Assembly: GCA_003024785.1 (NCBI GenBank)
Contig: PUQB01000222.1
Location: 62,001-126,000, forward strand
DNA from: Selaginella tamariscina
Lineage: Eukaryota; Streptophyta; Lycopodiopsida; Selaginellales; Selaginellaceae
Length of the DNA stretch: 64,000 bases
Direction of reading: 5' to 3'
The notes beneath the pieces are model-generated. The model was not told where the DNA came from, ran no database searches, and saw only the letters and a list, made by a program, of their open reading frames with translations. Within the stretch, counting starts at the first letter, position 1. Every line of letters begins with the position of its first letter. The translations under genes and the position numbers were made by a program. This document shows, piece by piece, positions 50,479-61,030 of this stretch.

Positions 50479-52235
50479 GTATGATCTTTACATGCTTTCA
50501 AGCCAAGTCTCCACAAACATGTGAATGCTCCTCTCGTCCAAGACACCTAGTAAGGCCTTTTGCTCACTCGATACTCTCGGCCTCTTCTGCATCGGATGAC
50601 TTGGCTTCTTCATTCCAAACCCCGCCAAGTTCACGTAGTCCGTGGTAACAAGAAGCTTCAAAATGTGAGGGAACGATTGGATGATATCTACTGCCTCCCG
50701 ATCCTTATCACGCTTGATGGTCTTCTTGTAGCCGCCTTTCTTGTGAAGAAACAACTTGTTGACGTCGAGCGAATCGATGGCTGCTCGATAATCTCCTTGG
50801 TGCATCTCCTTCAACGTCTTCACTTGGACCATGCAAAGCAGGTCCGTCGTAAAAGGATGTCCGGCATCTGTTCCTTCCAGCCGAAGGAAAAAAAACATGT
50901 CCGGGCCACATGTGAAGCTGTCAGACGTCGAGAAGAACGTGAAGAAGCTCGGATCTCTCCGTTGCACACTCTTTATCCAATCTAGCAACCTGAAGTCTTC
51001 TGTTTCAGTCACGAACTGCCTGCCAAGATCGTTCTCTGGCCTGATCAGGTACGCAGTGCTGTTGTACACCTCCGGGACGTTTGTGTTCCACGAGGAGAAC
51101 AGCTTGAGGAGGTTCTTCCCATCCAGCGCTTTGGCAATCATCTCTGTTGCTGGAGCTTCGTACGCCTTGCCCTGACTCAGAAAGTGTTCCTGCATTAAGG
51201 GCCTGACTAGCGAATTTTACTTGTAATACTGCCACAGAGCAAGGAATACCAAAGGCTCCGAAAACTCAACATACTTGGCCTCCTCGCTACCTTGAAAACC
51301 CGCTGTTCCCACAGTTTCCCAGCGTACACCACTCTCGAGTGCCTCCCCTCAAACTGGAGACGTGCGAGGCCGAACTCCACGAACGACAACGTCGGGTTCA
51401 AGGCCACAATCTTGGTCTTCCCAAAAGAACATGTTCATAACCACGCTCTGGAACCAAGCTTTTTTGCATCCTCCAACTCCTCCGATGAAACCCGGGAAAA
51501 GAACTTATAAACATCATCCAGCACAGTCCTGTTCACGGTCAACAACATCTTGTCCGAAGTGAGTGGGATCGAATTTGAAGCCACCACACCCCTGCACACG
51601 GCCATCTTCGTCCCGAACTCCACAAAGAAGCGGGTGGCAACCTCCCGCCCAGGATTTTGTTCGATGTAGTTCTCCAATGCTGTTGCGAAGGCTCTATATC
51701 TCCCCACGAAAAAACTGCTCAGCAATTCAAAGTCAAGATAACCACAATCACCTAAGATCCTCCCTGCATACTCCTGCAAACCCTTCCCATCCTCAAATCC
51801 ACCAAGATGAATCCACCAAGCACGATTCTTCCAAGTCTGCGATAAAAAGATAACAAAACCGTCAAAGAATTTCCAACTCAAAGTGAAAGAATCACCTCTG
51901 AAATGTGGTTCACCATGTGGAACAAACTTGTTCCAGTTCCGACATGAAGATCGTTTGTTGCTGGACATCAACATGTTGCATCGCCGGAACAAACACGTCC
52001 AACATGGACCTTGTTAGTTCTCTGCTAGTCCCCGAAGCGAACCTATTAGGGAGATAGTTCGCTAACTCCTGGCATTCGTCAACAATCACCGGGCCTGTCC
52101 ACCTACAAATACAAAGACAATGACAGGGCTGCAGATCTCGTGTTACCTGTACTGTCTCAATAAGAGACTAAGAGTTTGACTCAGAAGCATGAGTTCTTCC
52201 CTAGATGTTGCCAGTGAGTGAGTGTCCGCCATTTT

Positions 52236-52340
52236 GGAGGCTTGGGGCCCAGGAGGCCTGGGCTCGAATATTCAAGAATATTCTAGAATATTTTGGAATA
52301 TTCTTTCTGGTCGGCAGTATTGGCCTCAGTCGGCAAAAAA
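52236..52340. repeat. Left end of the MULE: inverted repeat, GAATATTC run, CAGTCGGC sites
   Basis: Terminal inverted repeat core 52236-52260. At 52266-52304 GAATATTC units follow each other (GAATATTCAAGAATATTC and on), giving the alternating GAAnnTTC pattern of a heat shock element. TCGGCA lies at 52311 and CAGTCGGCA at 52327. Confidence 0.7.
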
Positions 52341-52415
52341 GAATTCTATTAAAACTGTTGTATTTCTTTTTAATTTTTTTTATATTAGCTTAATTTATTA
52401 CTCAATATACATTAG

Positions 52416-59929: not shown

Positions 59930-60002
59930 ATTGCAACAGAGTTCATGACCCACCAGTGCTACAAGGATAAATGGTTTAGGGTTTAGGATAATGTCTTATT
60001 AA

Positions 60003-60171
60003 GCCAGTGGGCATATATTAAGCCAGTCGGCGTATATTAAACCAGTCGGCATATTAAAAAAACTTATATATTCTAGAATATTCTTGAGAATATGCTAGAA
60101 TATGCTAGAATAACCCTAGAATATCCGCGAATATACTAGAATAATATGAAGCCTCCTGAGCCGGAGCCTCC
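60003..60171. repeat. Right end of the MULE: CAGTCGGC sites, GAATATTC run, inverted repeat
   Basis: Three spaced copies of a CCAGT(C/G)GGC word (60005, 60023, 60042), then TTCTAGAATATTCTTGAGAA and further TAGAATA-type words to 60146, then the terminal inverted repeat core ending at 60171. The order of parts mirrors the left end. Confidence 0.7.
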
Positions 60172-61030
60172 TTTTTCGCCGAGACCCCCAGTGATAGTAT
60201 CTTCTCCGTCAGGAAGCATATGGATCCACAGTTGGATAGTTGAGGTGCACCGTCATCGTTTGTTTGAAAAGGAACCATGTGTCATCAACTCGTGCAACCG
60301 TCTGGAAGTATGACCGCACTAGAATCACAGCCTTCAAAGCCACAATGTCAGAAAATCACAAGCAATGAAGAAAATGAAACAAGCAATACCTTCAAACAAG
60401 CTGAGAGAGCAGCCTCGCTGATCTCACCCACTGGATACAAACGGGCCAAATATTTTTGAACAAACAAAAGGTCTCGTGATCCCTCTGCAATAGGGCTCCC
60501 ACCAGCCGCTCCAGCCAAGAAAATCGTTGGCTGCCTTACACCTATCTCAAGCAACGTCCGCGTTTTTCCCGCTCCAGAGACGTCGCAGAGAATCACAACC
60601 TTTGGCCTGGCCTTCGCCACACACTCGAGAAGCTGCACAGACCCGGAGTATGGTTGATCAAGCCCATGCCAAAGCAGACAAGGCTTCCACTGCCCTGAAG
60701 AAGGAACTCGGCAGATTGGCCCATTTGTCACCGCGAACTTCCCTTTGAAATCCTCCGGTTTAGGCATACTAGGGATGCCCGCTTCCACCGTCGCCCAGAA
60801 CTCCTTCAATATATTCTCAACAGCATCTACAGAAAACCTCTTTCAGACAAAAACCACATGCACGCCAGCACGAATCAAAAAGAAGAGCGAACAAACCATT
60901 TTAAACAAGCAACAAAAGAAAACGCCCAAGGAAGACCAAACAAGCAAGGTAGCCTGCCGGGGAAACAATCCAGCCCAACAAGCGAACCACAAACAAACGC
61001 CTGACGCCAACCACACTTCATCAAAGCCAT

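Follow-up and report, generated by a model that had tools for sequence, protein, structure and literature searches.

An 8-kb MULE-like transposon of Selaginella tamariscina with a second, methylase-domain gene and a conserved short-motif array as the candidate target of its product

An 8-kb MULE-like transposon in the genome of Selaginella tamariscina carries, divergent from its transposase gene, a second spliced gene for a protein with a bacterial-type DNA-methylase domain, and this pair of genes is maintained in two families of the element. The copy from which the analysis started, itself decayed, occupies positions 52,220-60,187 of the window, i.e., the 64,000-nucleotide stretch of contig PUQB01000222.1 that was analysed, and belongs to family A. 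Both families contain multiple copies of a 9-mer, CAGTCGGCA, in the region that separates the genes and close to each end, but arrange them differently. We regard the chances as about even that the second protein binds these repeats, with the predicted consequence of marking or unsilencing the element.

The limits 52,220-60,187 had been proposed in an initial annotation of this DNA, and proved exact. Terminal inverted repeats, both imperfect, lie at the left (52,220-52,257, plus strand, starting GAGTGTCCGCC) and right ends (60,151-60,187, minus strand, starting GGGTCTCGGCG), and they are flanked by a 9-bp repeat, CCAGTGAGT at 52,211-52,219, seven of whose nine bases equal those of the right copy, CCAGTGATA, at 60,188-60,196. 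Inverted repeats of the kind expected of a MULE are thus present, about 37 bp long and imperfect in family A, and about 25 bp long, as judged by eye, in family B. The target-site duplication, 9 bp in family A, falls within the 8-11 bp range given for these transposons in a MULE survey (PMC6446971). Both element ends are visible in seven of the 12 family A copies examined, the duplication being perfect over 9 bp in L012, L018, and L019, matching in eight of nine bases in L027 and in seven of nine in the window copy, and showing a one-base slip in L009 and L026. In family B, the flanks compared reach into the duplication in three of eight copies (L017, L021, and L023), and there the first 5-7 bases, which are all that the comparison covers, match. 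The left end is adjoined by an array of GAATATTC / AGAATATTCT units (52,266-52,304), and the right end by an AATATTC array (60,068-60,143). Arrays of GAATATTC (GAAnnTTC) adjoin both ends in both families (window, L024, L022), and their 8-mers are the most shared between the families after those of the CAGTCGGCA motif; we take these units to resemble heat-shock elements.

On the minus strand, 50,491-52,167 and 60,351-60,842, on either side of the element, code for apparent parts of one gene, presumably of Crinkler/RHS type, so that the element seems to have been inserted into it. Elsewhere in the window, frames labelled by eye include a Ty3/gypsy-like pol fragment (45,272-46,459, minus strand), two gag-like frames (8510-9004 and 36,432-37,037, plus strand), and a frame with an HNH-like CVGC..CVDC pattern (15,339-15,908, minus strand), possibly an EXD2-like gene of the host. 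Scanning the window for Rfam families and tRNA genes gave no match. At another locus, the left end of a second element lies beside the first in the opposite orientation (L026:9417-9943).

A PF01555 profile search of the genome (300.7 Mb, 1391 contigs) gave 739 candidate methylase matches at first look, and the 150 that were scored all exceeded the family cut-off; this count is a lower bound, because the window's own contig is absent among the matches listed. Twenty loci, hand-picked rather than random, were taken from this list. They fall into two groups: family A resembles the window copy, with a DNA identity of approximately 85-99.5% across the main blocks, and family B is more distant from it (approximately 65-68%). 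Both genes are covered at 15 of the 20 loci (at least 85% of each protein in translated alignment), their frames often being broken and two of them (L012 and L015) partly rearranged. The transposase is partial in L010 and L016, and in L011, L013, and L014 only a remnant of it, or none, lies within the stretch fetched. L014 has two copies of the methylase gene in inverted orientation, with no transposase in the 10 kb fetched.

Thus, many other copies bear out the proposal that the two spliced, divergently oriented genes belong to a single mobile element, and the search for further 8-kb copies with both genes, which the initial annotation had recommended, succeeded at those 15 loci. The finding that would have spoken against it, ends enclosing only the transposase and a methylase gene standing alone elsewhere, was examined from the methylase side, where the two genes were mostly found together. 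The Pack-MULE definition, a captured host fragment in an element that has lost its transposase, does not describe these loci, since 15 of the 20 have a transposase. That a phage-like gene and a transposase became chance neighbours, or were joined by misassembly, could draw on the single-base indels that are common in the copies of this assembly, but the same arrangement recurs on numerous contigs whose flanks and target-site duplications differ, which refutes this reading and leaves it a negligible probability.

In the window, the second gene (52,416-55,632, minus strand; six exons in the family models, 992 amino acids in family A) and the transposase gene (57,169 to approximately 59,970, plus strand; three exons in the family models, 1019 amino acids) run outward from the repeat array that separates them, and they, like the ends, sit where they had originally been placed. 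Both are damaged in this copy. The methylase exons contain six single-base frameshifting indels, and the 3' splice site of intron 5 has been lost, as judged by eye; the transposase lacks approximately 356 nt of exon 1 at 57,716 and has three further small indels. The majority of copies yields clean spliced frames for both genes. The open, spliced consensus models of the methylase gene encode 1015 amino acids in family B (nine copies) and 992 in family A (ten copies, L011 and L012 being left out as truncated or rearranged), and the two families agree in the positions of their five GT-AG introns. Those of the transposase encode 1018 amino acids in family B (eight copies, L014 contributing none) and 1019 in family A (seven copies), with two GT-AG introns common to both; L010-L013 and L016, truncated or rearranged, were left out of the family A transposase alignment.

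A single copy, L027, is free of indels in the methylase exons, and none of the nine family B copies is. In six of these nine near-identical copies the indel columns outnumber the substitutions (3-85 versus 1-66 in the 3.5-kb gene), an excess that suggests uncorrected long-read assembly error. In family A, whose copies are older, substitutions account for more of the differences. Between the families, the methylase protein is 55% and the transposase 65% identical, and pN is well below pS for both (0.297 versus 0.835 for the methylase gene, 0.231 versus 0.79 for the transposase, synonymous sites being saturated). Judging by these substitution patterns, both genes are under purifying selection in the two families, and this, together with their divergence, indicates that both have been maintained for a long time. 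Gene capture is frequent in MULEs, according to the survey (PMC6446971), and the second gene might have been captured once, Pack-MULE fashion, as a passenger with no function for the element. This is very improbable: given the same intron positions, the divergence reached, the low pN, and the open majority frames in both families, the second gene does not behave as a passenger, and the pN/pS comparison largely refutes the idea.

The initial annotation had described a MULE-type transposase with a SWIM finger, and sequence patterns consistent with this description are present. VLDHT, FMSDE, CLFH, and TTNNAE or TTNNSE, followed by a SWIM-type zinc finger CxCx12CxH (59,771-59,842, plus strand, identified by pattern), occur in both families; the set VLDHT/FMSDE/CLFH/TTNNAE is presumably the DDE triad with its CxxH, as judged by its resemblance to the MULE signature. 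The profiles did not follow: MULE profile PF10551 had no match at E<=1, either with pieces or with the full 1019-amino acid model, and the SWIM HMM stayed below its cut-off (E 0.011 on the piece and 0.04 on the full model). A protein-database search with the transposase found no relative, a PDB search gave chance-level matches (best E 0.32), and the AlphaFold model was unusable (pLDDT 40). Taking into account the unmatched profile and the missing database relative, the element is called MULE-like, and not a member of the MULEs.

For the second protein, the PF01555-like methyltransferase proposed earlier was recovered by profile, above the cut-off, both from the window and from the full family models. 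The piece 52,419-52,799 (minus strand) matches PF01555 with E 1.3e-9 (38.8 bits against a cut-off of 26.7), the match lying at 52,536-52,700 and including motif I, WDIGSGTG; the full models match with E 1.1e-8 and 6.9e-9 (35.7 and 36.4 bits). The match is confined to the C-terminal quarter of PF01555. The same piece matches phrog_67, a DNA methyltransferase family, with E 6.8e-12, and the last exon matches the methylases MboIIA, CcrM, and DpnA in the PDB with E 0.001-0.005, again in the C-terminal part only. Protein-database searches with the methylase exon and with a two-sequence profile found no relative. The relationship was extended with phage ParB-methylase fusions, eight of which were fetched out of the best 40 of 566 records; seven (L030, L031, and L033-L037) were aligned, and L032, a 236-amino acid protein, was left out. 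Against these seven, HHalign aligned the whole methylase domain with E 2.5e-5 and a probability of 50%, whereas two controls, the transposase and the central part of the second protein, gave E 0.23 and 0.95; with the full-length profiles, E was 4.7e-4. The initial annotation had proposed a captured bacterial or phage gene; resemblance to the phage enzymes is confined to the methylase half, where identity is approximately 25%.

The likely motif IV (53,159-53,170, minus strand) reads DLPN instead of DPPY. DLPN, preceded by a hydrophobic strand, occurs in both families amid differing neighbouring residues, and HHalign sets it on the catalytic DPPY of the phage enzymes. A BLASTP alignment with one phage enzyme places DPAY opposite LDPVK, 18 residues beyond DLPN. 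Neither DLPN nor LDPVK has the canonical form [DNS]PP[YFW], and since motif IV is altered in either register, we speak of a methylase domain and not of a proven methylase. Since DLPN lacks the PP-aromatic core, methylation may have been lost. Thus, the domain may be a pseudo-enzyme that keeps SAM or DNA binding and acts purely as a DNA-bound regulator, a reading which overlaps with our main one as regards binding and which we consider a real possibility, somewhat short of even. The identity of DLPN in both families and its alignment with the phage DPPY point in this direction, as does an intact motif I. However, purifying selection extends over the whole methylase domain, including the SAM pocket (73% identity between the families around motif I), the placement of motif IV is uncertain, and some active methylases have an unusual motif IV.

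The N-terminal half is assigned as ParB-like by motif. The box DGNHRL is present (54,873-54,890, minus strand), and the extended box CWDGNHRL is conserved and comes after the stretch VNPxDL..L..S.KK..GYL. The ParB domain announced by the initial annotation from the letters DGNHRLQAL did not gain confirmation beyond them. Pfam gave no ParB match at E<=1 with pieces or full models, profile searches of NCBIfam and PDB found no relative of this half, HHalign against the phage proteins gave E 0.4 with a probability of 0.1% (E 0.8 for the reversed control), tblastn against phages returned a single match at E 10, and the AlphaFold model of the ParB exon was unusable (pLDDT 49).

A candidate target of the second protein was found in the non-coding parts of the element. 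In the window, 15 AGTCGGC/GCCGACT sites form the intergenic array (55,717-56,543), mostly as inverted pairs TGCCGACTGA..TCAGTCGGCA inside a tandem repeat of 134-138 bp, with one left (52,328-52,334, plus strand) and two right subterminal copies (60,025-60,050, plus strand) of the CAGTCGGCA motif; in the 56 kb of the window outside the element there are two AGTCGGC sites. Three family A elements have 18, 19, and 20 sites and two family B elements 30 and 26, where 0.75-0.8 would be expected. The 15 loci that cover both genes have 7-30 sites each, the lower numbers (7-14) occurring in L009, L012, L015, L023, and L025 despite the presence of both genes. The top 8-mer common to the families, AGTCGGCA, occurs 19 times in one family A element and 27 times in one family B element; the best shared 8-mer in 60 first-order shuffles reached a count of 4. 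When sites were counted by zone in three elements, 15, 17, and 28 were intergenic, one or two lay within 250 bp of each end, and in all three none lay inside either gene.

The layout of these sites has changed between the families. Family A has mostly inverted pairs approximately 32 bp apart, and family B perfect palindromes, AGTCGGCATGCCGACT, every 39-40 bp. The palindrome 18-mer of family B, CAGTCGGCATGCCGACTG, occurs 1135 times in the genome, and its reversed control does not occur. Among the palindrome matches listed, which fall on eight contigs, six contigs have a listed methylase match at a distance of approximately 3.15-3.17 kb; both genes were also present on the remaining two when these were fetched (two of two loci picked by their palindrome array without a listed methylase match, L038 and L039).

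The likeliest cause of this conservation is a protein encoded by the element itself. The copies near both ends, approximately 105-175 bp inside each, suit a transposase site as well, since transposases bind there, and the transposase model has, in addition to its SWIM-type finger, a Cys/His-rich N-terminal region (zinc-binding as judged by eye). Ends and centre could therefore both be bound by the transposase, the methylase-like protein acting elsewhere, as a regulator or as an integration co-factor like maize MURB; among the extra ORFs of MULEs the survey lists mudrB, apparently required for integration (PMC6446971). We hold this to be possible but rather unlikely, because the 15-28 intergenic sites, against one or two per end, go beyond the needs of end synapsis.

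In the reading that we favour, the motif is bound by the second protein and not by the transposase, and the following steps are proposed. The protein would stay on the central promoter region and on the ends, and there it would either methylate the element, at N4 of cytosine or N6 of adenine, or bind without methylating, given its altered DLPN. As a result, the two outward promoters would stay open against silencing by host 5mC, the protein being a functional counterpart, built on a bacterial-type enzyme, of VANC in the VANDAL MULEs of Arabidopsis. Among the roles considered, a VANC-like one appears to fit best. C-to-T changes are 2.1, 3.6, 2.3, and 2.1 times as frequent at CpG as at other C/G positions in four gene alignments from families A and B, which suggests that the host methylates CpG (5mC) in these copies. 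This decay also suggests that they have been methylated although they carry the second gene, and to that extent counts against an anti-silencing role. The marking, protection, or counter-silencing put forward originally has circumstantial support in the motif arrays and the CpG-decay signature. A more speculative proposal, which we consider unlikely, is self-recognition of the bacterial partition-methylase type, in which, inside a nucleus, a ParB-like clamp would load on parS-like 16-bp palindromes such as AGTCGGCATGCCGACT of family B, spread, and deposit or read a private base mark, setting the transposon apart from host chromatin and silencing. That transposons might use DNA-modifying enzymes for self-marking or for escape from silencing is a long-open idea, and here, with a bacterial-type methylase gene tied to a candidate target that two families have conserved while changing its layout, it becomes directly testable.

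With regard to known systems, the phage ParB-methylase fusions resemble the present protein in domain order, with a ParB-type N-terminal part ahead of the N6_N4 methylase domain. The methylase halves can be aligned over their full length, whereas the ParB halves have no match at profile level. The phage proteins have 405-445 amino acids, DPPY, and no introns, and the present one is approximately 550-600 amino acids longer. Fungal KDZ elements with TET/JBP are likewise eukaryotic transposons carrying a DNA-modifying enzyme, in that case a dioxygenase, and their transposase is of another family. VANC21 removes methylation from the MULE family to which it belongs, whose non-coding YAGTATTAY arrays it binds (PMC5735166). 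VANDAL21 resembles the present element in being a MULE with an accessory gene, in having a short motif densely repeated in tandem, mainly in non-coding DNA, and in repeat gain and loss (PMC5735166); unlike the present protein, VANC has no methylase domain in that paper's description, and YAGTATTAY differs from CAGTCGGCA. Binding and loss of methylation have been demonstrated for VANC (PMC5735166), whereas the role proposed here is deduced from sequence.

The main text of the MULE survey contains no occurrence of 'methyltransferase' (PMC6446971), and a literature search found one report of a transposon with such an accessory gene, that of Sola1-1_Ec32 in the brown alga Ectocarpus, in which the gene is of ParB-methylase type and the protein has 1104 amino acids (PMC12477816). 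Sola1-1_Ec32 is a Sola1 element of 21.5 kb, in contrast with the 8-kb, MULE-like element with 9-bp target-site duplications described here; motif arrays, a comparison of families, and an altered motif IV belong to the latter, and what that report says of Sola1-1_Ec32 includes no mention of them (PMC12477816). New in the present case are a host element of MULE-like type, the fact that two families have conserved the gene, the change in motif IV, and a motif array that both families share. Taken together with the Ectocarpus Sola1 element, these findings would suggest that transposons of at least two superfamilies have acquired genes of ParB-methylase type.
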